Source: Sphingomonadales bacterium
GTDB lineage: Bacteria; Pseudomonadota; Alphaproteobacteria; Sphingomonadales; Sphingomonadaceae
Reading direction: 5' to 3'
NCBI GenBank assembly: GCA_020200315.1
Contig: JAIVIZ010000090.1
Coordinates: 1 to 32,638, forward strand
Length of the DNA stretch: 32,638 bases
The notes under the pieces were generated by a model, which was given only the letters and a program-made list of their open reading frames with translations, made no database searches and was not told where the DNA came from. Made by a program: the position numbers and the translations under genes. Below, in pieces: positions 12,930 through 32,638 of this stretch. Position 1 is the stretch's first letter. Each line of letters opens with the position of its first letter.

Positions 12930-12958
12930 GGACAATAGGGACCTTAGGGACATTAGGT
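12930..12958 (+). repeat. GGGACNNTA 9-bp tandem array, copy 2
   Basis: The units are GGACAATA, GGGACCTTA and GGGACATTA, followed by GGTCACGATT. The array flanks the DUF3606 gene on the opposite side from copy 1. Confidence 0.8.
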
Positions 12959-13418: not shown

Positions 13419-14789
13419 ATGACGCGATTGTTGCCGCTTGTTCTGGCCGCGGCTTTGCCGCTGGCAAGCGCGGGGAACGCGAAAGAGCGAGCCGCTGGAA
13501 CCGATCTGGCGCTCGTCAATGTTGCGGTTGTTGACGTCATCACCGGCAAGGTCATTCCTGCACGGTCCGTGCTTATTCACGACGGACGGATCTCTGCCAT
13601 CCAGCCGGCAAGTGCGGCGGTGCCGCCGCGATTTAGGAAGCTTGATGGGCGCGGGGGCTATGCTTTGCCTGGGTTGTGGGATGAGCACGTCCATCTTTCT
13701 GATGCGAGCCTTCCTGACACGGCTAAGCTTGCAGAAGGCTTTGTCCAGGCCGGCGTCACCACCGTCCGGGACATGGGAGGCAATCTTTCGGTCGTCGACG
13801 CGCTACGGGAGCTAATCAGGAGTGGCGCCGTCCGCGGGCCGCGTATCTTCAGGCCCGGGCCGTTCATCGACGGATACAAGAACGGAGCACCGGACCGCGT
13901 GACGGTTGAGAACGCACGCGAAGCGGAGGCGGCGATTGCTGCGCTCAAGCTCGAGAAAGTGGACTTCATCAAAATTCACAATGGTGTTTCGAAAGATGCT
14001 TTCCACGCAGTCATGTCTGCAGCGCGCCGCGCCGGCCTCAAAGTCGCGGTCCACCTCCCGCAATCGATTTCTGCCGAGGAAGCCGCGGCGGCCGGGGCTG
14101 CGACGCTCGAGCATACCGAAACATTGATGGAGAGCGGTCTTCGTTCGCTGAAACTTCCGGGCAAGACCGTCGAAGAAGGTCGCCGCGCTCTCGCTTACGA
14201 GGCGAGAAACGGTCCCGGCTCGCTTATTGCGACGATGCGGTCGAGAAAGACCTGCTTTACGCCAACGCTAAGCGAGTATCGCAGCTTTGCAGCTATGCCC
14301 TCCACTTCCTATCCGGTTGACGCGCCTAAGGTTGCGCCGCCCAGCTTACTAGCGTTCTGGGACCGATATTTCCCGCCCGACTCCCCCGAAAACGCGTTCA
14401 AGAACAAAATCAGGCAGCAGGTCTTCGCGACCTTCGCGTCGGTGGTAAAAGCTTTGTATGCCGCCGGCGTGCCCATACTAGCTGGAACGGATCTTGGCGC
14501 GCGAGACATCTATCCGGGAATTTCGCTTCACGAAGAGCTAAAGCTTCTTTCCGATGCTGGACTCAGCAACTTGGACGTTCTTCGAGCCGCAACCATCAAT
14601 CCGGCTCGCTGCATGGGTCTAGCGGACTCAATTGGAAGTCTTTCGGTTCACAAGGCTGCCGATATCCTCGTAGTTGCCGGGAATCCACTTGTGGAACTCG
14701 CAATGCTTGGTCGGATCAAAATGGTGATAATTGGCGGTCACGTTGTTCGCCGAATAGATGCCAACGAAGTGGCTGCTCGAGGTCACTAG
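13419..14789 (+). CDS. Secreted amidohydrolase (imidazolonepropionase-like family)
   Basis: The protein is 456 residues. An N-terminal signal peptide (about 1-21) is followed by a metal-dependent amidohydrolase. Metal ligands are visible: H90 and H92 in D-E-H-V-H-L, the conserved Lys in D-F-I-K-I-H, His in V-A-V-H-L and L-E-H-T, and Asp in I-L-A-G-T-D-L-G. The small beta-domain closes with L-S-V-H-K-A-A-D-I-L-V-V-A-G-N-P-L. Relatives include exported dipeptidase/prolidase-like and imidazolonepropionase-like enzymes. The substrate is unknown. It stands alone and is followed by a cluster of palindromes. Confidence 0.85.
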   Translation: MTRLLPLVLAAALPLASAGNAKERAAGTDLALVNVAVVDVITGKVIPARSVLIHDGRISAIQPASAAVPPRFRKLDGRGGYALPGLWDEHVHLSDASLPDTAKLAEGFVQAGVTTVRDMGGNLSVVDALRELIRSGAVRGPRIFRPGPFIDGYKNGAPDRVTVENAREAEAAIAALKLEKVDFIKIHNGVSKDAFHAVMSAARRAGLKVAVHLPQSISAEEAAAAGAATLEHTETLMESGLRSLKLPGKTVEEGRRALAYEARNGPGSLIATMRSRKTCFTPTLSEYRSFAAMPSTSYPVDAPKVAPPSLLAFWDRYFPPDSPENAFKNKIRQQVFATFASVVKALYAAGVPILAGTDLGARDIYPGISLHEELKLLSDAGLSNLDVLRAATINPARCMGLADSIGSLSVHKAADILVVAGNPLVELAMLGRIKMVIIGGHVVRRIDANEVAARGH

Positions 14790-18300: not shown

Positions 18301-20333
18301 GGGTTGGCGCGCATCGCCTCTTCCAGTGAATCGACCTGATTGGCCAGGCGGGGAAGGACCGAGGACGGATCGACGCCTTCGCCCAGCTTGGCGATCTCGT
18401 CGGCACTCAACCGCTCACCCATCGGGCGTGTTGATCCGAACGGAGCATCGAGCTTGTAGCCCTCAGGCAAAGGCGGAAGCTGCGACACGTCGATGATGTC
18501 GGGCCGGCGCAGGACTGGACCCTGTAGGACGGCAGGCGCATGATCGCTGGCCATCGCAGCGGACGAGGGTTGAACCTCATAGCCGGGTGGCGGCGGCGGG
18601 GAAATATCGTCGCGCGCCGTCTGTGCCGACCTTGGAGGACCACCGTTCCCAAGGCCATTATCGACAAGAGTGCCAGCGTCGTAGCCCGCCTGCTCGGCAG
18701 TGTCGGGGACCATGCGGCCCTTGATCCAGCGATAGCCCCGCGCAGCGCCCGCGCCGAGGCCACCAAGTACAACGCCGCCAGCAGCGCCCAGCACGGTTCC
18801 ACCGAGCGCACCAGGCAGGCGATTGACAACGCCACCCTCACCAGCGCCGAACCCTGCAAGGCCACCCTCGACCGCGCCAATCCTCGCAAGCTGTCCGACC
18901 GTCCGCGCCTCGCCGGCGACGGGCACGAACAGGCCACCAGTAAGCTGCCCGCCGATCCGATAATAAGGGTGCGTATCCTCGTCGTGAGCGATGATCGCCC
19001 GATTCTGATCGATGTTGTTCCACAGCACATCGCCAAAGCGCCGATCGCTGTTCCAGACGTTCTCACGGCCGGCAGTGAGGCCGAGGGAGTCTGCGACACC
19101 GCCAACTTCATCGAGCATATTGAACGGATCGCCGAACCCGCGAGCCGTGGTTCCGAACTTGCCATCGCCCGGATCGATTGAGGGGCGCGGAGGCTGGATA
19201 TATGCCAGCGCGTCGGAACTGCCCCCGGCCTTCAGGCGAGCGGCAACGAACTTGTCCGCCGCGTCCTTGGGGACAGTGAAGCCATTCGCCTGCCCGAAGG
19301 CGATCAGGTCAGCAGCGCCGTGCTTGGGATCGTGGGCGAACTCGGCATAGGCCTTGGCGATGTCGTCGCGCAGGCCGTAATTCGGTGTGGCCTCATCACC
19401 GAAGATCGCAGTGCCGTTGCCGTAAGTACCTGGCGTTGCACCCTGCCACGGGCCATCGCCGTGGCGGAATTGCGCGGGCGTCTCGGCATTGGTCCCCTGA
19501 CCGCCGAGCCGGTTCAAACGGGCCAGACGCTCTGCTTCCATGTACGGGCTGAAGCGCGGATCGCCTTGCAGATATTGCGGCTCCGCCAGCGCGTTGCCCG
19601 AGCGCAGCAGCGACAGGGCAGGATCGTCACCGTTGCCACCAAGCGAGACGATCGGACGGCCATAGGACTGCTGCCCGTTGGCTTGCACCGGAGTGGAAGG
19701 GCCGACCTGCGAGGCAAGCGCGTTGCGGGCCTCAATGCCGAGGGGTTGCAGCGAGCCATCTGGCCGACGCCCTTGTTGGCTCAGCTCCCACGCATCGACG
19801 CCGAACAACCGGGCATTCTGACCGTTCGACAGTTGGAACGTGTCGCCGTCATGGACCGCACCCGAGGGAGCCAGCGCGCCGGGCAGGTAGTTGCCCCGCG
19901 ACAGCGAACCGCGTTGGGTAAGCTGATAACCCGGAGGGAGGGGCGGAAGGCCGGAGTTCGGCGTGCCCGGCGTTCCCGGCGCTGCGCCCCAGCCCGGTAG
20001 CTGTAGGTGGACGTGATCGCCCTCGTTCAGCACCTTTCCACCCGGCCACTGACTGGCGATTGCCAAGGCTCGTGCCTGGACATCGCTGAGTCGCATTCCA
20101 GACGTGCCGGGCGTCAGGTCAACAGCGTCGCCCCTGAGATGCAGCGAGTTGGGCGCCGGACTGTATCCTTCGGCCCGCAGCCGCTGAATATCGACAGGCG
20201 TGCGGAAGCCGTTCGTCGGGACCACGCCGGCATCGAGCAACGGCTTGAGCGGATCGCCCGAGGGTCGGGCCGACAGCGTGCCCGGCAGCCTTGGCGGAGC
20301 ATCGAGCTGAAAGCCGGGCGGCAGATTGGGCAT
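15378..20333 (-). CDS. Giant polyvalent/virion-type protein: M15 peptidase-like, thermonuclease-like, LPD38-like
   Basis: The protein is 1651 residues. Residues 35-115 resemble an M15 (D-Ala-D-Ala carboxypeptidase-type) zinc peptidase, with S-L-H65-L-R-G-D-A-V-D72 and D-H107-V-H109. Residues 155-285 resemble a staphylococcal-nuclease fold (VHDGDTFQL, N-A-R-L-F-G-V-D-A, Y-G-R-P, Y-M-E-A-E-R-L-A-R-L). About 465-535 is glycine-rich and hydrophobic. Near residue 1063 comes N-S-L-L-S-G-P-K-T-H-V-V-N and near 1250 P-F-I-R-T-P-A-N-I-V-K-F-A, typical of phage large polyvalent proteins (LPD38 as I recall it). Six copies of an L-P-P-G-Y/F motif punctuate the domains. Such proteins are packaged and injected with DNA; the peptidase could cut the cell wall and the nuclease attack DNA. 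The start overlaps the upstream stop (TGATG). Confidence 0.75.
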   Translation of the reverse strand: MPNLPPGFQLDAPPRLPGTLSARPSGDPLKPLLDAGVVPTNGFRTPVDIQRLRAEGYSPAPNSLHLRGDAVDLTPGTSGMRLSDVQARALAIASQWPGGKVLNEGDHVHLQLPGWGAAPGTPGTPNSGLPPLPPGYQLTQRGSLSRGNYLPGALAPSGAVHDGDTFQLSNGQNARLFGVDAWELSQQGRRPDGSLQPLGIEARNALASQVGPSTPVQANGQQSYGRPIVSLGGNGDDPALSLLRSGNALAEPQYLQGDPRFSPYMEAERLARLNRLGGQGTNAETPAQFRHGDGPWQGATPGTYGNGTAIFGDEATPNYGLRDDIAKAYAEFAHDPKHGAADLIAFGQANGFTVPKDAADKFVAARLKAGGSSDALAYIQPPRPSIDPGDGKFGTTARGFGDPFNMLDEVGGVADSLGLTAGRENVWNSDRRFGDVLWNNIDQNRAIIAHDEDTHPYYRIGGQLTGGLFVPVAGEARTVGQLARIGAVEGGLAGFGAGEGGVVNRLPGALGGTVLGAAGGVVLGGLGAGAARGYRWIKGRMVPDTAEQAGYDAGTLVDNGLGNGGPPRSAQTARDDISPPPPPGYEVQPSSAAMASDHAPAVLQGPVLRRPDIIDVSQLPPLPEGYKLDAPFGSTRPMGERLSADEIAKLGEGVDPSSVLPRLANQVDSLEEAMRANPGPFRDVQAPDELTTLDVRRPNGGAYVRGPLDTTQALRTMGGVRDDGGDLAHLGIDNTPRRMDFGSNEQFLGKLVHDNGMGMDDAALALWERGYFPQFQERPTPADLIDRLHTESTGAHRYFHPDDYEEVARFHDAQAQRGAVERAQDEGSPLAEDVGQHITLDDLEANRAPASAYEDTPRIVGGKLGNINLDRLESPQDVAQLIDHVQKRVGGFDAASRGRITNDETRKLADELGLPPGGVLNRKTGQALNAEQLYAVRALVQKSRQLVAGLAKQAIGGSDEDVLAFRKAWVRHVALEEHVTGATAEAGRALQQFKMLAKAGDARGAAVKAYLNGAGGRESIEETAQKIVDLMEDPAQANHFMSQALKPKWRDKLNELWINSLLSGPKTHVVNFVGNALTSIYSLPEQALTAGIGKVTGSADRSYLGEVGSRITGMVNGSVEGLQRAKKAFVTGEAADDISKVESRVHDAIGGTFGKVVRFPTRALTAADEFWKSINASAELHALAYRKAMSEGTDAADRRARYEALVKAPTGEMAKQAEDAARYYTFQRELGPAGKKFTEVMNLVPGAKLVVPFIRTPANIVKFAGERSVFGIAMPEVRAALAAGGRSRDEALAKITLGSGLSTAAVLAAMHGRLSGSGPSDPRERAALQQGGWQPYSVRVGDRWVSYQRFDPLSLLAGVAADFVEAGHNAKPHEADKLALHLTLGVAKNLTSKTWLSGAADFFQMLDDPDRYGEQYFRNLAATAVVPSVLNQTAQAIDPNLRDARTLMDAIKARTPFLSRDVAPRRDMWGQPKTRGDSFGPDLISPVAGSYVSNDPLRAEVARLRAPVSMPQRNVMVDGERVPLTPEQFDEYQRVAGAGAHQVLSEAIRLPSWKIMTDDQRSELIKSAFTDARKDARGRLIADFPQLAGTGSGKQAGAPPLPPGFSSDAAPAQQRGSAARMIVPGRLAPQLMRRAQKVPALPPGYVLQPPR

Positions 20334-20605
20334 CAGTGCCGCGCGGGCACGATGATGGGTTCGCGGCCCCTGCCGAGCATGAACGACACCGCTGAAGCGA
20401 CCACGCTCATCCCCTCGGGGCTGTCGAGCAGTGCGACGCTGTTGGTCGGCAGCCGCTCGAACGCAGCCACCACCTCATCCCATGATGCATCCAGCTTCTC
20501 GGCCAGCTGCTCGATCAACCACTTGCCGGTTACCTGCCGCCCCTCGATCAGGCCTGGCACCGTATCCTCGGGGCAGAGGCAAAGCCCGTTGAGGGGCCAG
20601 GCCAT
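20333..20605 (-). CDS. Small protein between the two large phage-like genes, function unknown
   Basis: The protein is 90 residues from the ATG at 20605 (M-A-W-P-L-N-G-L-C-L-C). This start was chosen because it overlaps the preceding stop as TGATG; a six-residue longer version is possible. It contains a helical middle (W-L-I-E-Q-L-A-E-K-L-D-A-S-W-D-E-V-V-A-A-F) and no recognised domain. Both ends overlap neighbours by one base, so it is translated as part of the same cassette. It may be an assembly helper or small structural protein of the phage-derived module; this is inference from position only. Confidence 0.65.
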   Translation of the reverse strand: MAWPLNGLCLCPEDTVPGLIEGRQVTGKWLIEQLAEKLDASWDEVVAAFERLPTNSVALLDSPEGMSVVASAVSFMLGRGREPIIVPARH

Positions 20606-21732
20606 CAACGAACCGGCACCCACCGACCACCGCGCAGGACGATCTTCTGACCGTTCGGCCCGGTCGCGGTCGCGCCATCGGCAACACCGGTCGGCCCGGA
20701 GTACCGACCGTGCGCACCGCGCATGGCCATTGCTTGCTGCTCACCCGGCGTCAGCGGTTCGCCGCGCGCGACTTTGGCGATGATCGGCGCATAGACATTG
20801 CCGGTGGTGCGCGGCGGCCCAAGCGATCCGGGAGCCGGCGGATGCATGTCGCGATAGGTTGCGGTGCCCTTCAGATCGGTGCGATTGCCAGCGCGCTGTT
20901 CTTCCAGGCTGCTGCGGTTGCCGGCGCGTTGATCTTCCAGCTTGGTCCGGTCGCCGAACCGAGCGCCTTCGAGCGTCAGCAGCCCTTGCAGCGCCGTCGG
21001 GCCGTTGTTGCGCAGGGTGTAGTCCTCCACGGCCTTGTTGTAGTCGGGCGTGCCCTCCGTGTAGCCGAGCGTGCCGGCGTAGGTCTGCGCTTCGGTTGGC
21101 GCGTCATAGACCGTGCTCGCAGTGCCGGTGATCGGGTCATACTTCACCCGGTCGTCCTTGCCGGAGAAGAACTCCGGCTTGTTGTGCTGGTAGGTGCGCT
21201 CGTCCAGTTGGTCCTGGCGGCCCTGGTCGTGCTGCATTTGTTCGATGGCGTAGTGCTGCTGCTGAAGAGCGGCCTGCCCGGCGCGCTGGTGCTGATCCTG
21301 CAGCAAGGTCACTGCGTTGCCGATCGGCCCGCCGCTGGCTGCCAACAGAGCCTGCCCGATCTGCCCGAGAGCGTTGGTCGGATTGGCGACCCGATCGAGG
21401 AAGCCCATTAAGCCGTGTTGCGGGGCGGCATGCTGGTTGAGAAGCTGGGCCAGTATCTCGCCTACGCCATGCGGCTGAACTGCGGGAGACAGTGCCGTTG
21501 TCTGCTGAGCCCCACCAGTGTCGGGATGCGGCAGCGCGAACGGCGGCGTTCCCAGCGGTGGCTTCGCTCCGTTGATCGGCACCACTGCGGCGGGCAGCGG
21601 CGCGAGCGGATCGACCGTCGGCTGATTGGGCGTCACGGCACTGCCGAACGCGTCGAGATTGGTACCAAGAGCGCCGGGCAGACGTGCCATGCCTTGGGGA
21701 GTCGGGCGGTACAGAGCGGGAGAGGCGACCAT
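20605..21732 (-). CDS. Coiled-coil phage-like structural/ejection protein candidate
   Basis: The protein is 375 residues. A proline/alanine-rich start is followed by a small-residue-rich helical segment (about 110-145, including L-G-Q-I-G-Q-A-L-L-A-A-S-G-G). Next comes a Gln-rich helix (QQQHYAIEQMQHDQGRQDQLDE), a middle domain with Y-D-P-I-T-G-T and N-K-A-V-E-D-Y, and a degenerate repeat of E-D/E-Q-R-A-G-N-R about residues 265-292. The C-terminus is basic (V-L-R-G-G-R-W-V-P-V-R). The pattern resembles internal virion or DNA-transfer proteins encoded beside giant polyvalent proteins in podoviruses. No catalytic motif is seen. It overlaps the upstream RHH gene by one base (TAATG). Confidence 0.65.
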   Translation of the reverse strand: MVASPALYRPTPQGMARLPGALGTNLDAFGSAVTPNQPTVDPLAPLPAAVVPINGAKPPLGTPPFALPHPDTGGAQQTTALSPAVQPHGVGEILAQLLNQHAAPQHGLMGFLDRVANPTNALGQIGQALLAASGGPIGNAVTLLQDQHQRAGQAALQQQHYAIEQMQHDQGRQDQLDERTYQHNKPEFFSGKDDRVKYDPITGTASTVYDAPTEAQTYAGTLGYTEGTPDYNKAVEDYTLRNNGPTALQGLLTLEGARFGDRTKLEDQRAGNRSSLEEQRAGNRTDLKGTATYRDMHPPAPGSLGPPRTTGNVYAPIIAKVARGEPLTPGEQQAMAMRGAHGRYSGPTGVADGATATGPNGQKIVLRGGRWVPVR

Positions 21733-24156: not shown

Positions 24157-24294
24157 ATGGCTACCCAACAGCATACCCGTGCGCACCTTCGCGCGCCACT
24201 GGCGATACTAATCGCCGCCCTGATTGGCACGTTGCCGATCGCCGTCTGCATCCTCGCCTCCAACAGCGTGTTCAGCGCGGAGGTGGCACGATGA
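24157..24294 (+). CDS. Very small membrane protein
   Basis: The protein is 45 residues from an ATG preceded by TAGGAGA. It has one transmembrane helix (about residues 14-36, APLAILIAALIGTLPIAVCILA) after a basic start, so the N-terminus is probably cytoplasmic. The stop overlaps the next start (ATGA). It is the first gene of a four-gene rightward operon. No family is recognised. Confidence 0.6.
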   Translation: MATQQHTRAHLRAPLAILIAALIGTLPIAVCILASNSVFSAEVAR

Positions 24295-24926
24295 ACCGCC
24301 GCGAAGTTCTCGCCGGGATCGGCATCGCCGGCGCAGTCGCAGTCGTTCCGCTTAGCGGTGCACTCGCCGCCACCGGGGGAATCGACCGGGCGGAGTGGGA
24401 TGCCGCGATGGCGTCCCTGAAACAATGCGAGCAGGCCTTCAATGTGTCGAACGAGAAGGCCGACGGGTACGCTCAAGCATATGAGGAAGCTCGCCCGAAG
24501 CTGGAGATGATCGACTTCCGCGAGTTCCCCTTCACCGACCGCAACGAAGTCGCTCGCACCTACGACATTGACCACCATGAGCGTCAGCGCCTCGCGGGTG
24601 AAGGGACGACGTGGTGGGCCAAGGACCCGGAAGCGACCCGCGCGAAGATCAAGGCCGCTTGCGAGAGCGTCCGCGAGTTTCGCCGACTGGAGGCTGATGC
24701 TGCCGAGCACACCGGATACAAGGCGTTTTTCGAGCAGCACGAAGCCCTGCTCGGCCGACTGTGCGAAGCGCAGACAGTGTTGGTCGAAATGCCTGCGCCG
24801 GATGCAGAGGCGCTCCTGTGGAAGATCAATCACCTATTCCAACAGGAAGACGTTACGTGGACGCCGGAATATACCGCGCAGTTCCACAGTGACGCGGCCC
24901 GCCTCCTCTCGAACGGGAGGGCATGA
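24291..24926 (+). CDS. Tat-signal-bearing exported protein, function unknown
   Basis: The protein is 211 residues. The N-terminus N-R-R-E-V-L-A-G-I-G-I-A-G-A-V-A-V-V-P ending at A-L-A-A is a twin-arginine-like export signal (R-R-E-V-L). The mature part is mainly helical with many charged residues and Trp/Tyr (F-T-D-R-N-E-V-A-R-T-Y, T-T-W-W-A-K-D-P) and resembles uncharacterised proteins of phage-like or conjugative accessory regions. No metal or catalytic motif is seen. It is translationally coupled on both sides by ATGA overlaps. Confidence 0.65.
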   Translation: MNRREVLAGIGIAGAVAVVPLSGALAATGGIDRAEWDAAMASLKQCEQAFNVSNEKADGYAQAYEEARPKLEMIDFREFPFTDRNEVARTYDIDHHERQRLAGEGTTWWAKDPEATRAKIKAACESVREFRRLEADAAEHTGYKAFFEQHEALLGRLCEAQTVLVEMPAPDAEALLWKINHLFQQEDVTWTPEYTAQFHSDAARLLSNGRA

Positions 24927-25360
24927 CCATAACCCAGCAAGCAAAGGGAGGGGCTTCGGCCCCTTCCAACGTCGTGCGGCTTCCGACTGCCGCGCGGCGA
25001 CAGGTCAAGCAGGCTTGCAACAAGGCGGGTCGGGCCGCCCGCGCCGCTCTGAGGGCTGAACAGCCGTGGCCGGGTGAATACCTGTTCCCCGGCATCCGGG
25101 ACGCCATGCGGCGTTTGCGGGGGCTCCGATCGATGCCGTCAAGTGCGGCCGTCAATCTGGCGCGGAGCGTCGTTGATCCGGAGACTATCAACGAGAGGCC
25201 ACGAGTTCTGGGCCTCATCCGGTGCGGGGTCGATGCGGGCGATCCGTTCGCGCGGGAGGTCCACCGCCTGTTAAGAGAGCTCACAGGAACCACCTACGGC
25301 GACCACAACGACTTCAAGAATGCCCTGACCCGCTTGGCGATGGCGAGGGAGGCTCTGTGA
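24923..25360 (+). CDS. Hypothetical protein of the 24.1-25.7 kb operon
   Basis: The protein is 145 residues. A basic N-terminal third (A-A-R-R-Q-V-K-Q-A-C-N-K-A-G-R-A-A-R-A-A-L-R) is followed by P-W-P-G-E-Y-L-F-P-G-I-R-D-A-M-R-R-L-R-G and a helical C-terminus. The arginine-rich start could contact nucleic acid; this is inference. It overlaps its upstream neighbour by ATGA and its downstream neighbour by TGATG. No family is recognised. Confidence 0.6.
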   Translation: MTITQQAKGGASAPSNVVRLPTAARRQVKQACNKAGRAARAALRAEQPWPGEYLFPGIRDAMRRLRGLRSMPSSAAVNLARSVVDPETINERPRVLGLIRCGVDAGDPFAREVHRLLRELTGTTYGDHNDFKNALTRLAMAREAL

Positions 25361-25701
25361 TGGGCCTCCATAGCATCAGAAGCGCTTCGGCGCTGCCCAT
25401 CGCCCTTTCCGTCATTCCAAGCCTGCCACGCCCCATGCTGTCACGGCTCGTCGCTCGGATCATTGAGCGCATCGACGAGATCGACGGGGACGCCGACCTT
25501 GAGGAGGACAACGAGGATGCGGGCGTTGAGGACGATCCGCTGGGCATAGACCCCGAGCAGGATTATTGCCTCGCCCATGAGGACCACGGCACTTGGGGCA
25601 TGCTCACGCCGGCGCAGAAGCAGGAGGTCCGTAGGGTGAAGCTAGCTGCGAAGGCGCTCAGGAAGCCAAGCAATGTCCTAGCGCGGAATGAGGGCGGTTG
25701 A
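25360..25701 (+). CDS. Acidic hypothetical protein, last gene of the operon
   Basis: The ATG at 25360 overlaps the previous stop (TGATG) and gives 113 residues; a longer in-frame extension lies inside the previous gene. A helix R-L-V-A-R-I-I-E-R-I-D-E-I-D-G-D is followed by a strongly acidic run (D-L-E-E-D-N-E-D-A-G-V-E-D-D) and a basic end (V-R-R-V-K-L-A-A-K-A-L-R-K). The layout of a small Asp/Glu-rich protein with an E-R-I-D-E-I-D-G-D motif occurs in other alphaproteobacterial accessory regions. The role is unknown. Confidence 0.6.
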   Translation: MGLHSIRSASALPIALSVIPSLPRPMLSRLVARIIERIDEIDGDADLEEDNEDAGVEDDPLGIDPEQDYCLAHEDHGTWGMLTPAQKQEVRRVKLAAKALRKPSNVLARNEGG

Positions 25702-26123: not shown

Positions 26124-28184
26124 CTAGAAGGCCTGCTCAAGTCCAATCGTGAATGCTCGCTCACGACCCCTACGCGTCCAGCCCCCTTCCAACGTCGTTG
26201 CATCCCCGGCGAGATAGTGGACGTTTGTGAGGTTCGTTAGGTCAAGGCGGAGGTCTGAAGGCTGTCCGGCTATCCTCACATGATACACAGCAGCGAGCCC
26301 GAGCAGGCCGTAAGGAGAATGGCGTGAGCCGTTGGGCCTCACGCCATCCGAAGTCCGCACCGCGCCGCTCGACACCAGCAGGTCGCCGGCGAGGTTGAGC
26401 CTGCCGAACCGCCGACTGACTCCGCCCGATGCGGTTACCGGACGGTCGCTTGCCAACGGAATGAACCGCCTCGATGCCGCAGCGATCATGGCTGGGGCGA
26501 ACAGTTCTTCGCCGCCGATGATTGTTCTGCCGCGCGCACTTGCCAGAGCAAGGTTGAGCCACGCCGCTGTGCCCCGGCGAGCGTAAGTCGCGGAGAACTC
26601 CAACCCACTGATGCGTGCCCGCCTGAAGCCAAACGCGGTTGGCACTGCCGAGCCCAGTGTTTCGTGCTCGGCGATGTAGTTGCGCGCCGAGCGCCAGTAG
26701 CCGTCGACCCCCAGGGTGAGGTCGCCCAACTTTTGCTGAATGCCCGCGTCGACATAATCGTCGCGCTCCTGAGCCGATCGCGTCCCGATAGGCTCCTCGC
26801 CGGGAGCGGGCACGGACGCATAGCGGGCATAGCCAACGTGGGCTGTGAGGCCACGTGAGGAGCCCCAGACCAAGCTCGCGCGAGGCTCAAGCGTAGCCCT
26901 CGATCCAAAGCCGCGCAGCCATTCCAGCCGGCCGCCCGGATTGAACGTCAGGGAAGGCGCAAGCTTCCACTCGTCTTGCGCGTAGACGGCGACAGACGTT
27001 CGTTTGAGGCTTGACCGGACGCTGCTAAAATCAAGCTCGCGAGCCGTGGATCGGGTGGCGAGCAGACCAAACCGCAGGGTGTGTGCTGTGCCGAGGGCTT
27101 CGCTTGCATCGATCTGGGTACCGAAAGACCTGCGGCGGTCACTGGTCATCTCGCGGAATTGTGAGCGATCCGATGCGACGCCCCCGAACACGGAGGCTTG
27201 GATCGTGAAGCGATCGTCGCTGTGCTGAAATGTTCCAACGGCGTAATCGTCGCTGTTCACCTGCGAACCTGAACCGATGCTCGTCTGACCGATCCTGTGG
27301 CGCTCGTGCGAGCCGCCAAACATCAGGGAGACGCGGTTGTTGGCGTCAAAGACGTGATCGGCAAAGCCAAAGCCTTCGACCTCGGTCCGGCTGTCGCGGG
27401 CAGTCGTGCCCGCATCCGCGAGGATCGAGCGCTCCCGACTCCCGGAAGCAAACAGGCTTGTGCCTTGGACCGACCCTGCCCACTCAATCGCGGGCTCAAC
27501 CATGCTGTCGGTGCTGGCGAACAGTTCGGCCTGGCCCCCGTGCTGATACAGGCCGTTCTTCGTAGTGATGCTGATCACGCCCGCTGGGGCGAAGCCGAAC
27601 TGCGCCGGGAGGGTGCCGGTCACGAGGCGCGTCGTCTCGGCAAGGCGCGAACTCAGATGGTCAGCCGGATCGGAGATCGCCTCGGGCACGATGACGTTGT
27701 TGATGCGGACCTGATTGACGCGTGACCCGCGGACGTTGAGCACGTTCCCTGAGAGAGTAACGCCCGGAGCCTGCAAGAGAACGTCCGAGATGCTTCCCGT
27801 CTCTCCGCCTGGCCGGTTCTCTATGGCATCGTTGCTCAGGGAGTAGACGGTCGCCCCGAGCTCCGCATCTATCTGGGTTCTCGCTGTGTCCAGTCTTCGG
27901 GCGGTCACAACGATCGCGCTTTCGGGCTGAGCGCCGCCTTCCTCCTTGTCGTCGTCCTCAGCGGCATCGTGCTTACGCGGCGGTGACGGAGCGACGGCTT
28001 TCGGGTTCTCATCATCAGCGTCCAACGCAGGCGTGACGACTTGAGGACTCGCCTTAGGCTTCTCGTCGTCTTTGCCTGGCGCCGGCGCAGCAAGCGCTGG
28101 AGGTGCTGGCTGTTTCCTGTGGTCATCATCGTCAGGTGGAGGCGAGCTCATAGTTCCGAGGATGAAAACAGCGGCCATCAGCAT
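26124..28184 (-). CDS. TonB-dependent outer-membrane receptor
   Basis: The protein is 686 residues from the ATG at 28184; a GTG 18 codons upstream is possible. A signal-like start (M-L-M-A-A-V-F-I-L-G-T-M-S) is followed by an unusual ~90-residue acidic/proline linker (P-P-P-D-D-D-D, P-G-K-D-D-E-K-P-K, A-E-D-D-D-K-E-E). Next come a TonB-box-like I-V-V-T-A-R-R, the plug (D-V-L-L-Q-A-P-G-V, L-N-V-R-G-S-R-V-N-Q-V, G-V-I-S-I-T-T-K-N-G) and a beta-barrel with alternating aromatic strands, ending L-E-Q-A-F with the terminal Phe needed for BAM insertion. It imports an unknown ligand. No transporter or regulator gene is adjacent. Weak ribosome binding sites leave the start open. Confidence 0.85.
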   Translation of the reverse strand: MLMAAVFILGTMSSPPPDDDDHRKQPAPPALAAPAPGKDDEKPKASPQVVTPALDADDENPKAVAPSPPRKHDAAEDDDKEEGGAQPESAIVVTARRLDTARTQIDAELGATVYSLSNDAIENRPGGETGSISDVLLQAPGVTLSGNVLNVRGSRVNQVRINNVIVPEAISDPADHLSSRLAETTRLVTGTLPAQFGFAPAGVISITTKNGLYQHGGQAELFASTDSMVEPAIEWAGSVQGTSLFASGSRERSILADAGTTARDSRTEVEGFGFADHVFDANNRVSLMFGGSHERHRIGQTSIGSGSQVNSDDYAVGTFQHSDDRFTIQASVFGGVASDRSQFREMTSDRRRSFGTQIDASEALGTAHTLRFGLLATRSTARELDFSSVRSSLKRTSVAVYAQDEWKLAPSLTFNPGGRLEWLRGFGSRATLEPRASLVWGSSRGLTAHVGYARYASVPAPGEEPIGTRSAQERDDYVDAGIQQKLGDLTLGVDGYWRSARNYIAEHETLGSAVPTAFGFRRARISGLEFSATYARRGTAAWLNLALASARGRTIIGGEELFAPAMIAAASRRFIPLASDRPVTASGGVSRRFGRLNLAGDLLVSSGAVRTSDGVRPNGSRHSPYGLLGLAAVYHVRIAGQPSDLRLDLTNLTNVHYLAGDATTLEGGWTRRGRERAFTIGLEQAF

Positions 28185-28329: not shown

Positions 28330-28503
28330 CTATGAGCCCGCCTTCACATATCCCGCCCGCGTCCGTGCCCACGCAATCACAATCCGCGCCGCTTTAATGC
28401 GACTGCTCAGCTGCTTGCGCTTGCGCTTGCGCTTGTCCTGCTCGGCTTCACGTTGAGCAATGAGGTCCGGCAGGATCGCGACCAGCTCTTGCACCTTGGT
28501 CAC
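28330..28503 (-). CDS. Small Lys/Arg-rich protein ending the mobile-element operon
   Basis: A GTG at 28503 opens 57 residues: M-T-K-V-Q-E-L-V-A-I-L-P-D-L-I-A-Q-R-E-A-E-Q-D, then K-R-K-R-K-R-K-Q-L, then I-K-A-A-R-I-V-I-A-W-A-R-T-R-A-G-Y. It starts two bases after the stop of the HGG-motif gene, with GGAG upstream inside that gene. The K-R run comes from a CGCAAG-type hexanucleotide repeat. Its basic helical nature suggests nucleic-acid binding, which is inference. It is the ninth and last gene of the coupled leftward operon. Confidence 0.55.
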   Translation of the reverse strand: MTKVQELVAILPDLIAQREAEQDKRKRKRKQLSSRIKAARIVIAWARTRAGYVKAGS

Positions 28504-28505
28504 AG

Positions 28506-28775
28506 TTAGAGCGCAGCCAGCTCCGCCCGCATCTGCCGCAGTGCAGCCCGCATGGCTCGATGCTCCGCAGATCGAGCCCCATGCTTCCAGGCGTTTCGAT
28601 TACCCTTCGGCGCGCCGGGCGACGGGCCGCCGTGCATTCGGCACCTTCCGTTCGGCATCGCCGGGGACTGGCAAGGCTTGCCCGAGCGAGTTCGCGCCAG
28701 GCACCGTGGCGCAACCGCCATCTGTGAGGGCTGCTTGAGGTTGTTCGGCTGAAACTCGTTTTCTTCCGCGCGCAT
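28506..28775 (-). CDS. HGG-motif small protein of mobile elements
   Basis: The protein is 89 residues from the ATG at 28775; a start at 28721 (M-A-V-A-P-R-C) giving 71 residues is equally plausible. The core C-L-A-R-T-R-S-G-K-P-C-Q-S-P-A-M, then R-C-R-M-H-G-G-x-S-P-G-A-P-K-G-N-R-N-A-W-K-H-G, is the HGGxSTGP-type family. It has four cysteine/histidine positions that could bind zinc and is common in phages and integrative elements, function unknown. With the upstream start it overlaps the preceding gene by 176 bases, which is unusual and probably reflects a frameshift in that gene. Confidence 0.7.
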   Translation of the reverse strand: MRAEENEFQPNNLKQPSQMAVAPRCLARTRSGKPCQSPAMPNGRCRMHGGPSPGAPKGNRNAWKHGARSAEHRAMRAALRQMRAELAAL

Positions 28776-29253
28776 TGTCGCCTCCGATATTCACCTGTTG
28801 GTGTCCGCTCACGATGTTGGTGTGGCGCGCGAACACGGTCGGGTTCTTGATCTCGGCAATCGCCTCGATCGTCACCCGACACTGTGCCTGTGCCTTCAAC
28901 GCAAGCCGGGAAAAACGCTCATGCGCATTCGGAAAGGCGCTTAGGTTCGCCTGCGCCTGGATCAGGTTGTTCACGAACAGGCCGTTCAGGACATGAGCCT
29001 GCGCGGTGAGCATCCCCTCCAGTTCGGAAATGTCGCCCGCGTTCACCGCCGTAATCTTCGTCTCTAATGCGCCGAGCATGCAGAGGCCCTTGTCGGCATC
29101 GTCCGGGCTCAACAGCTTCCCGAGCAGGACACCGTTCAGGCTGGCGGGAGCGAGCAGGTCAATTGCGCTTTCCATCACCGGATCAGCCGTGTCGGCGAGG
29201 ACCGGCAGGTGTTCGCCATTATCAGCCAGCGCCGGCAGTGTTTCCTTGGTCAT
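28600..29253 (-). CDS. Hypothetical mobile-element protein, C-terminus possibly frameshifted
   Basis: The ATG at 29253 overlaps the stop of the winged-helix gene (ATGA) and gives 217 residues. Residues 1-170 are helical and look family-like (L-L-G-K-L-L-S-P-D-D-A-D-K-G, L-E-G-M-L-T-A-Q-A-H-V-L-N-G-L-F, A-I-A-E-I-K-N-P-T-V-F-A-R-H-T-N-I-V-S-G-H-Q-Q-V-N). Relatives I recall end soon after the Q-Q-V-N motif with an E-N-E-x-x-x-N-x-L tail. Exactly such a tail (R-A-E-E-N-E-F-Q-P-N-N-L) exists here in the HGG frame. Loss of two bases from a GC-dinucleotide run near 28765 would explain the extended out-of-frame end. Confidence 0.6.
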   Translation of the reverse strand: MTKETLPALADNGEHLPVLADTADPVMESAIDLLAPASLNGVLLGKLLSPDDADKGLCMLGALETKITAVNAGDISELEGMLTAQAHVLNGLFVNNLIQAQANLSAFPNAHERFSRLALKAQAQCRVTIEAIAEIKNPTVFARHTNIVSGHQQVNIGGDNARGRKRVSAEQPQAALTDGGCATVPGANSLGQALPVPGDAERKVPNARRPVARRAEG

Positions 29254-29495
29254 TGATCTTCTCCCCTTACCCATCCGATATATCGATCCCGACCGGCACC
29301 TATCCGTTTGACGAGCCCGCGCGCTTCTAGTCGCCGGATCGCGGTCGCGACGTGGTCACGCCGCATGCCGAGGACACCGCTCATCGTCGCATAAGATGGA
29401 CCCCGTCCGGTCTCCGCGATGTGTCGCCGCAAGAGGCCGAGCAGTTGGTGCGCGCGAAACCCAAGCATCCGCTCCGGCCGGATCGGTCGGTTCAT
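29250..29495 (-). CDS. Winged-helix DNA-binding protein
   Basis: The protein is 81 residues from the ATG at 29495, fixed by an ATGA overlap with the upstream stop. L-L-G-L-L-R-R-H-I-A-E-T-G-R-G-P-S-Y-A-T-M-S-G-V-L-G-M followed by V-A-T-A-I-R-R-L-E-A-R-G-L-V-K-R-I is a typical LexA/MarR-like winged helix, with recognition helix near residues 50-60 and a wing at G-A-G-R-D-R-Y. It probably regulates transcription of the element or copy control. No ligand domain is present. Confidence 0.75.
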   Translation of the reverse strand: MNRPIRPERMLGFRAHQLLGLLRRHIAETGRGPSYATMSGVLGMRRDHVATAIRRLEARGLVKRIGAGRDRYIGWVRGEDQ

Positions 29496-29974
29496 CGCCC
29501 CAAGTCCCACAGCAGCACCGCGCCGTGAGCCTCGCGCCGGTTGAAGTACGATCGGCCCCCATCACCATCATCGGCGGCGGCATAGTCAGCCGTGATCGCC
29601 AGCAGCTTGCGCCCGGCGAGCCACACCGCGAGTCCGTCGGCTGCGGGGTCGCTGGTGGCGTCAGGGACGGCTCCAAACAGCTCGAACGGAGACCACCCCA
29701 GAGCCAGCGCCTTTGCGGCCCAGCCGTAGCGGGCGAGACCAAGGGCATCCGACACGACAGCGGGCCATGCCTCAGGCCTGCGCAGTCGCGGAGCGGCCAT
29801 CTTGCGCAGCAGCTTCAACCCGTCCGCGAGTGGCAAAGGGAGAGATGCTGGGACGTTAGGGACGTTAGGGACATTAGCCGCGATTGAGGGGCTATTGTCC
29901 CTATTGTCCCTATTGTCCCTATTGTCCCCGCCATCCGCTTCCAGTCTCGCGGCGAGATCGAGCCACTTACCCAT
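29492..29974 (-). CDS. Hypothetical mobile-element protein with Asn-Arg-Asp repeats
   Basis: The ATG at 29974 gives 160 residues and overlaps the DUF3987 stop by eight bases. Residues 15-42 consist of two tripeptide runs, N-R-D repeated and N-V-P repeated, encoded by inverted GGGACNNTA arrays. The remainder is a helical domain (R-R-P-E-A-W-P-A-V-V-S-D-A-L-G-L-A-R-Y-G-W-A-A-K-A-L-A-L-G-W) and E-A-H-G-A-V-L-L-W-D-L at the end. It resembles uncharacterised proteins encoded after DUF3987 genes in alphaproteobacterial elements. The repeat looks like an insertion into an interdomain linker. Confidence 0.65.
   Translation of the reverse strand: MGKWLDLAARLEADGGDNRDNRDNRDNSPSIAANVPNVPNVPASLPLPLADGLKLLRKMAAPRLRRPEAWPAVVSDALGLARYGWAAKALALGWSPFELFGAVPDATSDPAADGLAVWLAGRKLLAITADYAAADDGDGGRSYFNRREAHGAVLLWDLGR
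29850..29927 (+). repeat. GGGACNNTA arrays in inverted arrangement, inside a gene
   Basis: On the plus strand, GGGACGTTA, GGGACGTTA, GGGACATTA are followed by GCCGCGATTGAGGGGC, then four TATTGTCCC units, the reverse complement of GGGACAATA. Two head-to-head arrays thus surround a CGCGATT core. The array is in frame with the 160-residue gene on the minus strand. Confidence 0.9.
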
Positions 29975-31496
29975 TGGCAATTCCGATCACTGCCGGGTTG
30001 ACGATGTAGTCGGATGATTGCCGCCCAGCCGCTTCGCCGGCCCGCGTTCCCGCCACCTTCAGCCAGTCGGCCTCGACAAGGAACGCCAGCGCTTCATTCA
30101 GCGGCTCGGCTTCGCGCATTCCCGGCAAGTGCTGCTTGAACGGAGTCCGCTTCAGGTCTCGCGCATTCACCTTCTTCAGCTTGTGCTTGACGATCAGCCT
30201 GGCGAGCGTTGCTGCATGGCGTTCGACCAGCGGCAGGACCGCATCCCCGAACACCCGCAGCGCCATCGGCTTGGCATATTCATCGACGAACTCGGCAACG
30301 GCGGCGATCGTCTTGGCGCTGATCGACTGAGGCTCAGGACCGCCACGGTACGCCCAGCCCGCCAGCTCCGCCACCAAGGCGAGCCGCAGCACCATGCCGG
30401 GCAACTTCCCGCAGAAGCTCTTGAACAGGCCCCCAGCCTCGTCCCCGGCGTCACGGTTGGCGCGTTCGAACTGCTCGAACACATCAGCCGCGGCTGGATC
30501 GAGGGTGAGCGTAACAGCGACTTGGCGACCGTCATGCCCGACGCCCCACGCAAGATCGTCGAGGCGGCGGTAGATACTTTCGAGTGCCGCATGATCGGTC
30601 ACCCGGCGAGGCCGCTGGTAATCGCAGCGATCCGGCCACGTCCACAGGAAGCGGGCGACCAACCCGTCATCGGGCTTACCCTTGCCGAACAGCGCATCGG
30701 CCAACTTCTCGGGCTGAATACCGCCGACCACCGACACACCGTTGAACGGCACCATCGTCGGTTCGGGATTGCCCTTCCGATCGATGACGAATGGACGACC
30801 ACCATAGGCTTCGAGCCAGAATTCTCGGCCGCCGGGCGTGTAGCGATCGAAGCTCGTCAGCCATCCCGCAAGCTCGTCGCGCAGGTGCAACGTGCCGCTC
30901 GGATTGCCCGACAATATCTCGGCCAACTTCTCAGGGGTGGAGTCCTGGACGAGGAGGCGGCGGCGTTGGGGTTGCTTCGGCTCGGCTGCGCCCTCCGGCA
31001 TCGGCGGCGTCGGCAATCCGTCTTTCGCCGCTTCCTTCACCAGCCCCTGAAACGTGCCCCACTCGACTTTGGACCGTTCGCAGTCAGCACGCCAATGATT
31101 GATGAGGTCGCCGTGCGTAGAGGCATGGTCCTTTTCCATATCGCGGAGGGGATTGGTCGCACGATCCAAAGCCGGGGACTTGTTGGAGGACGGATCGCCG
31201 ACCAGGCCCGTCCATAGAATGCAGGGCTCCGTCCAGTCGGCGTCGGCGTAAGGCTTCACCTTGCGCTTGCCGCCGATGAGCGAGGCGACGACCGACAGGT
31301 AGCCCACGGCGACATAATCGACGGGCGACCCGGCGCCTTGTGCCATGTCCGCCAGCAACCCCCATGCAGGGCCGAACAGCTCGACTGGCATTGAGGCGGG
31401 GGAGCGACGACCGGCGGCGAGGACCGACATATCCGGTGCCGGCCAGATGTGGATCGGCTCGGCTGAATCATAAGCCTGCGCAAGGTTACGCTGCAT
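29967..31496 (-). CDS. DUF3987-type primase-helicase-like ATPase
   Basis: The protein is 509 residues; the ATG at 31496 is one codon after an alternative GTG. It has a P-loop G-L-V-G-D-P-S-S-N-K-S-P, a Walker-B-like L-R-D-E-L-A-G-W-L near residue 210 and a G-G-I-Q-P-E-K-L-A motif, with F-L-W-T-W-P-D-R later. This is the DUF3987 family found with primase-like proteins in plasmids, integrative elements and phages. It is thought to act as a replicative helicase. It overlaps the upstream gene by 11 bases and the downstream gene by 8, so it is translated with them. The winged C-terminal portion (V-N-A-R-D-L-K-R) may bind DNA. Confidence 0.75.
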   Translation of the reverse strand: MQRNLAQAYDSAEPIHIWPAPDMSVLAAGRRSPASMPVELFGPAWGLLADMAQGAGSPVDYVAVGYLSVVASLIGGKRKVKPYADADWTEPCILWTGLVGDPSSNKSPALDRATNPLRDMEKDHASTHGDLINHWRADCERSKVEWGTFQGLVKEAAKDGLPTPPMPEGAAEPKQPQRRRLLVQDSTPEKLAEILSGNPSGTLHLRDELAGWLTSFDRYTPGGREFWLEAYGGRPFVIDRKGNPEPTMVPFNGVSVVGGIQPEKLADALFGKGKPDDGLVARFLWTWPDRCDYQRPRRVTDHAALESIYRRLDDLAWGVGHDGRQVAVTLTLDPAAADVFEQFERANRDAGDEAGGLFKSFCGKLPGMVLRLALVAELAGWAYRGGPEPQSISAKTIAAVAEFVDEYAKPMALRVFGDAVLPLVERHAATLARLIVKHKLKKVNARDLKRTPFKQHLPGMREAEPLNEALAFLVEADWLKVAGTRAGEAAGRQSSDYIVNPAVIGIANG

Positions 31497-32046
31497 CACG
31501 AAGTTCCTCCCCGTATGTGATGACCGGCAGGCGGTAGGGGCGGCTCAGCGCCTCCTTCAGCCGATCCGCGAGATTGTGATCCTGGCACCGGATGCTCGGC
31601 AGACTGGCCAGATTGATGACTTCCGGCGCAGACCAGTCGAGGACGCACAGCCCGTCACAGCCAGCACGCAGCCAGTCGAGCGGTGACGCCCACAGACGCA
31701 CCTCTGGCTCCCAGCTATGGCGTTCGAAGCCGTCGAGCAGTCCGAGCGACCACCCGACGCCGATCCGCAGCAGCCATGCCAGCGGCTGTTCCGACGTGAA
31801 GGCCACCAGATCGACGAGTTCACCGTCTTCGAACACCGGCAGGATCAGATGCGGCGCTCCGTCGCACGAAGGAGCGTAGAGGCCGTCGTCAATGGCGATC
31901 GCCCGGGAAGTGCCGCCGAAGAAATGACGGTCCCCCATGTGAGCGATCGTTGACCAGGGCACGCCGAGGGCCTGCAGCCGGCGCAGGAGCAGTGGGTGCG
32001 CCGCGAGGGAAAGTTCGCGGAGCTCCCGCGATATGCCGCCGGTCAC
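31486..32046 (-). CDS. Primase/toprim-associated mobile-element protein candidate
   Basis: A GTG at 32046, fixed by a GTGA overlap with the gene before it, gives 186 residues; a 13-residue longer TTG start is less likely. The sequence (L-R-R-L-Q-A-L-G-V-P-W-S-T-I-A, L-I-L-P-V-F-E-D-G-E-L-V-D-L-V-A-F, G-L-C-V-L-D-W-S-A-P-E-V) suggests an alpha/beta fold. It sits where primase-type proteins precede DUF3987 helicases. The acidic D-x-D catalytic motif of toprim is not evident. It could be an accessory primase subunit; the function is inferred from position. Confidence 0.55.
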   Translation of the reverse strand: MTGGISRELRELSLAAHPLLLRRLQALGVPWSTIAHMGDRHFFGGTSRAIAIDDGLYAPSCDGAPHLILPVFEDGELVDLVAFTSEQPLAWLLRIGVGWSLGLLDGFERHSWEPEVRLWASPLDWLRAGCDGLCVLDWSAPEVINLASLPSIRCQDHNLADRLKEALSRPYRLPVITYGEELRDAA

Positions 32047-32252
32047 CGAGACGCCCCCCAGATGATCTGCGCAAACAAGCCGCAACGCTCCACGGGAACA
32101 CCGTGACGGCGTTGGAGCAGTTGATACTGAAGCAGTGCCACTGTATCGTCAGAAATGTCACCGCCAAGCTGACAAATCGGGAGCCGTCCAGCCGAATAGG
32201 CCGGGCGGCTTCTCGCTTTTTCGGAAGCGAGCACACCGATGTGCTGGGGCAC
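32043..32252 (-). CDS. Small hypothetical protein of the mobile-element operon
   Basis: A GTG at 32252 lies one base after the AlpA stop, and the stop at 32043-32045 overlaps the next GTG start (GTGA). This supports the 69-residue product (M-P-Q-H-I-G-V-L-A-S-E-K-A-R-S-R-P-A-Y-S-A-G-R-L-P). The middle (D-D-T-V-A-L-L-Q-Y-Q-L-L-Q-R-R-H-G-V-P-V) is probably a helix plus strand. No family is recognised. Coupling at both ends argues for a real gene. Confidence 0.5.
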   Translation of the reverse strand: MPQHIGVLASEKARSRPAYSAGRLPICQLGGDISDDTVALLQYQLLQRRHGVPVERCGLFAQIIWGASR

Positions 32253-32253
32253 T

Positions 32254-32415
32254 TCAAGAAGCGCTCACGAATTGGCGTAGGCTCTCGACATTCACGAGAC
32301 GACGACGTCCGATGAGGGTTGTGGCAATGCGGCCCTCGCCGATCGCCTTGTAGATGGTGGTCTTGCCGAGGCCCGTCATTTCGCGGGACTCGTTGATGGT
32401 CGCGGTGATCTTCAC
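32254..32415 (-). CDS. AlpA/excisionase-type helix-turn-helix regulator
   Basis: A GTG at 32415 with a GGAGG ribosome binding site gives 53 residues. The sequence T-I-N-E-S-R-E-M-T-G-L-G-K-T-T-I-Y-K-A-I-G-E-G-R-I-A-T-T-L-I-G-R-R-R-L-V-N is a textbook AlpA/MerR-like excisionase HTH: recognition helix K-T-T-I-Y-K-A-I, then G-R-R-R-L wing. AlpA proteins act as excision or transcription activators in integrative elements. It heads the coupled nine-gene leftward operon ending at 28330 and supports the view that this is an integrated mobile element. Confidence 0.85.
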   Translation of the reverse strand: MKITATINESREMTGLGKTTIYKAIGEGRIATTLIGRRRLVNVESLRQFVSAS

Positions 32416-32585: not shown

Positions 32586-32638
32586 CCGTCTCATTCGCTT
32601 TTCTTTGCTGGCCGTCGCTACCCGACCAAGCTCAGCAC
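32550..32638 (-). CDS. Possible 3' end of a gene running off the right edge
   Basis: One frame is open from the edge to a TAA at 32550-32552, giving 28 residues rich in Lys/Arg (A-E-L-G-R-V-A-T-A-S-K-E-K-R-M-R-R-L-K-G-K-G-C). If an integrase or other element gene lies to the right on this strand, this would be its tail. It is too short to identify. Confidence 0.2.
   Translation of the reverse strand, partial: AELGRVATASKEKRMRRLKGKGCWPHVV

Follow-up and report, generated by a model that had tools for sequence, protein, structure and literature searches.

The DNA analysed here, hereafter the window, consists of the first 32,638 bases of the 40,250-base contig JAIVIZ010000090.1 from a fragmented Sphingomonadales genome (assembly GCA_020200315.1). 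An operon of nine coupled genes on its minus strand (28330-32415) is best explained as the arm for excision and replication of an integrative element of 21.4 kb, most likely a phage satellite, a reading to which a probability of about 0.6 is given. The opposite arm of this element encodes a phage-type ejection protein, and short repeats (iterons) are found at two places, inside a gene of the operon and near the far end of the element. A preliminary description of the same DNA had seen in the operon a compact module of an 'integrative or satellite element'. The integrative half of this phrase is borne out below, and that the element is a satellite beyond being integrative is what we infer. Neither the ejection genes (15378-21732) nor the iterons appeared in that description, and they make the element more interesting than it held.

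The boundaries of the element are defined by an integrase gene and by two attachment repeats:

32618 to 32638 (whole gene to 33496, past the window, from the contig extension), minus strand: C-terminal end of a tyrosine integrase.
12288 to 12306, plus strand: distal attachment core of the element, GGATGCTCTTGCGGCATCC, repeated at 33638-33656 of the same contig, past the window.

The integrase gene lies about 200 bp from the AlpA gene of the operon; lack of an integrase near the operon, which the preliminary description had named as evidence against its proposal, is thus not what was found. The attachment site expected to the right was also recovered, as a 19-bp exact direct repeat with only two copies in the available genome sequence (12288 and 33638); the longest word shared by both flanks was at most 14 in 500 base shuffles. 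In G357, a genome of the same genus, rplT (94% identical protein) adjoins aceA (92%) and the intervening DNA contains the core once, in exact form, i.e. an empty site. From the attachment repeats and this single copy, the element extends over 12288-33656 (21,369 bp) and is inserted between rplT and aceA, the gene past the integrase (33896-35170) being presumably aceA by its similarity. Integrase, flanking direct repeats and an empty site in a relative together mark an integrative element. The exact core is present in one of the 11 same-genus neighbours read, the ten others having at best 5-7 mismatches. A tRNA gene as target was ruled out in the window: the site is an intergenic 19-bp palindrome-like core, and ARAGORN detected no tRNA on the window or on the joined contig. 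Other sphingomonads carry a similar gene order, as the preliminary description had anticipated, and it is accompanied by an integrase. Six of these relatives, 19.6-28.9 kb in size, are bounded by direct repeats of 14-23 bp overlapping a tRNA gene at one end, namely tRNA-Gln (G248, G282, G058, G249), tRNA-Lys (G307) and tRNA-Asn (G300). No flanking repeat was found for G199 and the ends of G120 were not resolved. The tRNA-Gln elements are inserted in opposite orientations, G248 and G282 (L061, L084) having the tRNA at their integrase end, G249 and G058 (L067-L069, L064-L066) at their ejection end.

All nine open reading frames of the operon are present on the minus strand between 28330 and 32415. 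In the order of transcription they are:

32254 to 32415, minus strand: AlpA-type excisionase/regulator (HTH_17, 4.3e-8; TIGR01764 'excise', 7.5e-7, above cut-off).
32043 to 32252, minus strand: x69, with a homologue in L035.
31486 to 32046, minus strand: 186-amino acid (aa) protein in the place of a primase; of 25 other records, G249 and G120 alone have homologues.
29967 to 31496, minus strand: DUF3987 helicase-type ATPase (PF13148, 4.6e-61; PHROG 2373 DNA helicase, 1.2e-24).
29492 to 29974, minus strand: 'DNR' gene, following DUF3987 and holding the iteron array (family, 17 aligned).
29250 to 29510, minus strand: winged-helix protein (Pfam LexA_DNA_bind, 1.4e-5, just above cut-off; weak replication-initiation PHROGs, 2.7e-5).
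28600 to 29253, minus strand: q217, a conserved protein accompanying HGG (8 of 26 records have the family, window included; also G221, G088, G224).
28506 to 28775, minus strand: HGG, an HGGxSTG protein (NF041373, 3.1e-12; weak terminase-small-subunit PHROG matches, 2.8e-5).
28330 to 28503, minus strand: KR57, a small K/R-rich protein with homologues in G120, G199, G282 and G221.

The tight coupling claimed for these genes was confirmed, two of the eight junctions being gaps (1 and 2 bases) and six being overlaps (4, 4, 8, 11, 19 and 176 bases). AlpA and x69 are separated by 1 base, x69 overlaps the 186-aa gene by 4 (GTGA), which in turn overlaps DUF3987 by 11. Overlaps of 8 and 19 bases follow between DUF3987 and the 'DNR' gene and between the latter and the winged-helix gene, then come overlaps of 4 (ATGA) before q217 and 176 between q217 and HGG, and a gap of 2 bases before KR57. 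Genes were called with a small custom caller that predicts start sites and itself missed x69, the winged-helix gene and HGG. Family matches were found for the AlpA, DUF3987, winged-helix and HGG labels already proposed. The winged-helix protein is identified by Pfam alone and has no homologue in the 25 other compared records, and the homologue of x69 also directly follows alpA in one other record (L035). The DUF3987 protein has no sequence relative in the PDB at E <= 1 and gives only distant matches in the phage collection (7 records, 21-28% identity) and in the plasmid collection (33 records, of which the 20 listed are at 23-31%).

The label 'primase-like', given earlier to the 186-aa protein, holds for its place. 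In many relatives this place is occupied by a CHC2-Toprim primase cluster, one member of which was confirmed by Pfam (Zn_ribbon_DnaG, 2.8e-24; Toprim_3, 2.3e-14), and primase domains were also found by Pfam in 3 of 109 element proteins. The label did not hold for the sequence of the 186-aa protein, which has no hit to Pfam, PHROG or NCBIfam models at E <= 1; its identification as a primase was rejected, with an hhalign probability of 0.2% against eight proteins of the primase cluster. A fold predicted from a two-row alignment was worthless (predicted local distance difference test, pLDDT, of 36). The label is therefore backed only by position.

The HGG gene is read in the +1 frame of q217, over the 176 bases common to the two genes (within 28506-29253), and the genes overlap in 8 of the 8 elements read; in two further elements the HGG motif occurs in the +1 frame of q217. 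The two are either coupled genes or parts of a fusion made by programmed frameshifting. Homologues of q217, HGG and KR57 stand in the same order in G120, G199 and G282.

The far arm of the element is dominated by the ejection genes:

15378 to 20333, minus strand: 1651-aa ejection (internal virion) protein with an SNase-like N-terminal part (PHROG 6651, 4.2e-51).
20605 to 21732, minus strand: 375-aa partner of the ejection protein; the gene order of the pair is shared by elements and by the complete phage G372.
21732 to 21878, minus strand: ribbon-helix-helix protein at the head of the ejection pair (Pfam RHH_1, 0.00027).

The match to PHROG 6651 identifies the C-terminal part of the 1651-aa protein as a phage internal virion (ejection) protein. 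By tblastn this protein matched 74 phage records, all below 60% identity, with an autographivirus-type internal virion protein D among them. Its N-terminal part retrieved thermonuclease chains from the PDB with a seven-row profile (best E 0.0023); the Pfam SNase match (0.017) is below cut-off. Residues R175, D180, E183 and R226 are invariant across seven aligned ejection proteins, and we take them to fit the catalytic Arg, Asp, Glu and Arg of staphylococcal nuclease. The 375-aa protein matches no Pfam or PHROG family and nothing in phage records. The two genes have counterparts in G372, a temperate podophage known as a 35-kb virus contig (IMGVR_UViG_3300037467_001409), where genes of the 375-aa and 1651-aa types are adjacent, the latter 40% identical over 1649 aa, and are followed by a gene partly related to one of G249. 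A second ejection gene occurs in the genome of the window, on contig C181 (positions 3974-8836 of L158, i.e. C181:5001-25000). Its protein is 83% identical and iterons lie just past it; either the cell holds two elements or the bin combines two strains.

Among 298 genomes of the family, the ejection protein was found in 14 at E <= 1e-100 (15 loci), and DUF3987 relatives were found in 14 at E <= 1e-20. The 15 ejection neighbourhoods were read as far as they were fetched, those of C181, G224 and G088 being truncated. Six of them contain the DUF3987 arm (the window, G307, identical to record G062, G248, G249, G282 and G058). Within the stretches read, no DUF3987 arm was seen in the others, where single proteins match Prim-Pol, DUF927 or primase families. 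In a tree of the ejection protein, rows with the arm (9) and rows where none was seen (10) are mixed, with six changes and a clustering no better than in shuffles.

Genes for building a phage head were sought in two protein sets, one of 109 proteins from five elements and one of 99 proteins of at least 150 aa (one batch contributing 52 of its 56, with four integrase or ejection proteins left out); proteins cut by the ends of fetched pieces belong to neither. The results refer to the best 25 of 55 and of 49 PHROG families and to the best 25 of 37 and of 29 Pfam families, respectively, lists from which single proteins with weak matches may be missing. These PHROG families comprise no terminase, portal or coat; they do include internal virion protein, with 3 members, DNA ejection, with 1, and 'virion structural protein', also with 1. 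As a positive control, the same scan detects TerS, TerL, portal, coat and head closure in G372. BLAST against G372 likewise revealed no terminase, portal or coat at eight further ejection loci, where its matches comprised an integrase (G221) and two proteins that belong to the ejection region of the phage (G006). The ratio of nonsynonymous to synonymous substitution rates (dN/dS) of ejection genes is 0.10-0.20 in five pairs. As judged from these sequence comparisons, the ejection gene is under purifying selection in elements without a recognised terminase, portal or coat.

This tells against a decaying prophage, i.e. a podophage stripped of its head genes in which chance remnants are kept, which we regard as unlikely. 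Such a remnant would account for the homology to G372 of the ejection pair and, weakly, of a small gene family, for the grouping of the window's ejection protein with that of G372 (Shimodaira-Hasegawa-like approximate likelihood-ratio test, SH-aLRT, 97, with long branches) and for the cargo-like TonB and amidohydrolase genes. Stops are also present in the aligned ejection stretches of G298 (two) and G308 (one), where the called genes are of 1687 and 1708 aa. However, called ejection genes encode 1248-1794 aa under the low dN/dS given above, and integrase, AlpA and attachment repeats are in place. Moreover, 10 of 96 genera have, at differing sites and whether or not DUF3987 is present, an ejection gene kept without recognised terminase, portal or coat.

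Conjugation was considered as another route of transfer. Large multi-domain proteins are known from conjugative elements, and the 1651-aa protein could act in the recipient like the large injected proteins of such elements if this were an integrative mobilizable element. A NikA-like match in 2 of 109 proteins (best 2e-7) and a weak one (0.0052) of the ribbon-helix-helix gene preceding the ejection pair would agree with this. Yet no relaxase is among the best 25 of 37 and 25 of 29 Pfam families listed for the 109 and 99 proteins, and the C-terminal half of the large protein is a phage internal virion protein; mobilization by conjugation is accordingly considered very improbable.

Iterons were found at the following positions:

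29850 to 29928, no strand assigned: inverted iteron array of 4 + 3 copies of GGGAC[AG][AT]TA, period 9, inside the 'DNR' gene.
12552 to 12578, plus strand: distal iteron block (site R) of three copies, from a repeat search.
12938 to 12951, plus strand: pair of distal iterons (second block of site R), from a repeat search.

Iteron pairs number 8, for 0.07 expected. The triple iteron occurs in 5 of the 298 genomes at ten sites, all inside elements, and the reversed control pattern at none. An array is present in 15 of the 27 'DNR' regions listed (L037 and L027 repeat other rows wholly or nearly), and the DUF3987 proteins that go without it (8 of 23 rows) are set apart from the others by a branch supported at 100/100. 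Within each element the two arms of the array match: GGGAC/GTCCC in ten, GGCAC/GTGCC in G307, L022, L023 and L024, and GTGCC/GGCAC in L026; in G300 just one arm has clear copies. All eight elements tabulated (the window, C181, G307, G248, G058, G249, G282 and G300) carry, on the same strand, a distal site whose core is that of the element itself, 29 bp to 2.8 kb past the stop of the ejection gene. G221 too has distal iterons past its ejection gene, and none were seen in the 0.5 kb available for L026. The sister elements G307 and G249 (100/100 in the DUF3987 tree) have different cores, each present in both places.

A conserved peptide repeat (DNRDNR...NVPNVP) could produce the same array, but this reading was rejected. 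The left array of G249 is read in another frame (GTIGTKGTI), AGG accounts for 35 of the 59 Arg codons of the arrays for 3.4 expected (31 of 52 without a locus counted twice, G120 being L025), and some arrays lie outside the gene. The frame shift in G249 and the AGG excess indicate that DNA rather than peptide is conserved. As for the reader of the iterons, AlpA alone was rejected, since the type of core is independent of the type of AlpA, and q217/HGG were rejected as they are absent from several iteron elements.

These observations can be assembled into the following scheme for the satellite. AlpA and the integrase would excise the element when a helper phage acts, and DUF3987 with its partners would start replication at the inverted array inside the following gene; the array beside DUF3987 is a candidate origin by analogy with the origins of Escherichia coli phage-inducible chromosomal islands (PICIs). 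The same factor would also bind the distal array, either as a second site comparable to crr of P4 or to control the ejection genes. Head, portal, terminase and lysis would come from a short-tailed helper phage, which would best resemble G372 because these ejection proteins are found there. The element's ejection protein would replace or join that of the helper in the particle and be injected with the element DNA, whereby the SNase-like domain would be brought into the recipient. We infer each of these steps, i.e. excision trigger, origin, distal site, helper and injection. It is possible, although short of probable, that such elements are satellites that depend on a helper for heads, tails and packaging while having their own SNase-tipped ejection protein, with catalytic residues kept, injected with the satellite DNA, and that they replicate from iterons inside a coding gene with a matching block at the far end, both changing together.

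The closest described systems, compared here from excerpts of the cited papers, share parts of this organisation. Like Gram-negative PICIs such as EcCICFT073, the element has int, AlpA, a replication arm and two iteron sets by a replication gene (PMC6092414). In that island AlpA drives induction, and the E. coli origins consist of two iteron sets flanking an AT-rich stretch (PMC6092414). The order int-AlpA-replication genes with iterons near the replication gene, a candidate origin, is that of a PICI. In contrast, the element family measures 19.6-28.9 kb, keeps a virion gene and has DUF3987 rather than Pri-Rep, its array is inside a protein gene, and a further block is at the far end (PMC6092414). 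PICIs are defined by the absence of structural genes (PMC6092414). Although it works like a PICI-type satellite, the element is not classed as a PICI, because this defining feature is lacking. Nor is it a capsid-forming PICI or a complete temperate phage: no coat, portal or terminase of its own was recognised among the best 25 PHROG families, for which G372 was the positive control.

The phage-inducible chromosomal minimalist islands (PICMIs) of Vibrio are searched for with a model of int, alpA and a 'primase' (DUF3987 or DUF5906), which the element matches (PMC10803314). In PICMI115, AlpA is necessary and sufficient for excision; this island has six genes and lies beside fis, whereas the element lies between rplT and aceA, and fis is optional in one of two PICMI models (PMC10803314). 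Ejection genes are not mentioned for PICMIs in the excerpt of that paper. The 16.8-kb satellite AH14b of Pseudomonas ANT_H14 resembles these elements in having int, AlpA and a short Toprim primase adjoining a helicase gene; it is packaged in AH14a heads, and the word 'ejection' is absent from the paper (PMC4936722). The Streptomyces satellites MulchRoom and MiniFlayer have, like the element, some virion genes of their own, but these are for capsid and packaging, with short tail fibres in MiniFlayer, and no primase is reported in the excerpt (PMC10690885). G372 shares with the element the ejection pair and a related primase (39%) and differs in having TerS, TerL, portal, coat and head closure; no DUF3987 homologue is among its called genes and no GGGAC iterons are in its pieces L144 and L150. 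P4 replicates with its own helicase/primase and uses two cis sites, ori and crr. The element has a different replication protein and no psu or sid families were seen; psu, sid and delta are not among the best 25 Pfam families of either set, no gene-by-gene search having been made. Two virus contigs from IMG/VR (G314 and G315, siphovirus-like by eye) have the order primase-DUF3987-'DNR' of the elements and, unlike them, many more phage-like genes, no array in the 'DNR' gene and no ejection protein of this family. This module, common to the elements and to G314/G315 (L071-L074), seems to pass between phages and elements. The open-access literature yielded no paper joining phage satellites, sphingomonads and integrase, none on a satellite-encoded injected virion protein with a podovirus helper and, judged by titles and the openings of abstracts, no satellite with ejection genes.

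Several observations weigh against the satellite reading. Excision, transfer, packaging and a helper were not observed. Compared with a PICI, the element is too large (21.4 kb, relatives 19.6-28.9 kb, for about 15 kb) and has a structural gene, that of the internal virion protein. Only half of the 26 genomes or records bearing DUF3987 (13) also have a match to the ejection protein at E <= 1e-10, and in G306 and G312 this match is confined to the SNase part. The two iteron sites also part company. G221 has distal iterons and an ejection gene with no DUF3987 match, and G298 has a second array before, not after, its ejection genes. G120, G199, L020, L023 and L024 have an array with no distal block or ejection gene in the stretches read, several of which end at contig ends. 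Eight further ejection elements include a single one with an array (G221), six without an iteron pair and one (G057) with three scattered pairs. Taken together, G221, G298 and the array-only elements link the array to DUF3987 and the distal block to the ejection gene; the two sites may be separate matters. In addition, the 'DNR' protein was rejected as initiator, as its predicted structure (pLDDT 83) has no PDB fold match at E <= 0.001 (best E 1.2; the best viral match is an unnamed protein, E 5.6e-3), and the array as RNA has a stable fold (-45.9 kcal/mol, z -7.0).

Part of these data would be accommodated if the iterons were operator boxes of AlpA/Cox type or of another regulator, or a translation-controlling mRNA hairpin, instead of an origin. 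The stable RNA fold and the want of a known initiator fold in the 'DNR' protein favour this, as does the occurrence of distal block and array each without the other, as operators might occur; 9-bp direct repeats near an attachment site are typical of excisionase boxes. Elements without the distal block slightly lower the satellite explanation and slightly raise this one. Conversely, distal arrays are in a single orientation and could form no such hairpin, the distal site lies about 220 bp to 6.5 kb from the attachment core, too variable for excisionase arms, and GGCAC and GGGAC elements fall in one AlpA cluster, the core type being independent of AlpA. Operators or a hairpin are hence a possible but rather doubtful explanation of the iterons, and the candidate origin of a satellite is preferred.

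The remainder of the element contains probable cargo and small genes:

13419 to 14789, plus strand: amidohydrolase, probable cargo (Pfam Amidohydro_1, 2.1e-29).
24291 to 25701, plus strand: three small genes of families common to other elements (family clusters).
26124 to 28184, minus strand: TonB-dependent receptor, probable cargo (Pfam, 1.4e-20).

The small genes at 24291-25701 form an opposite-strand pack found in many elements, with a weak match in phage G372 (9e-5). The TonB receptor gene is placed between the operon and the ejection genes, inside the element. TonB receptors are often phage receptors, and this one may be more than cargo. SRAP-family genes recur in the right arms of several elements (L062:3462-4064, L068:12740-13351), the family accounting for at most 3 of 109 and 3 of 99 proteins.

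Known satellites remodel heads, redirect packaging or make heads of their own, according to excerpts of the papers describing them (PMC10803314, PMC10690885, PMC6092414). An element family that keeps an ejection protein would mean, if true, that a satellite can provide for delivery itself and for what accompanies its DNA into the next cell. The iteron arrays provide a directly testable candidate origin in sphingomonads, and the triple iteron is a tag for finding these elements, all ten of its sites in the 298 genomes being inside them. Overall, an ejection protein together with iterons at two places suggests a previously undescribed form of phage parasite.

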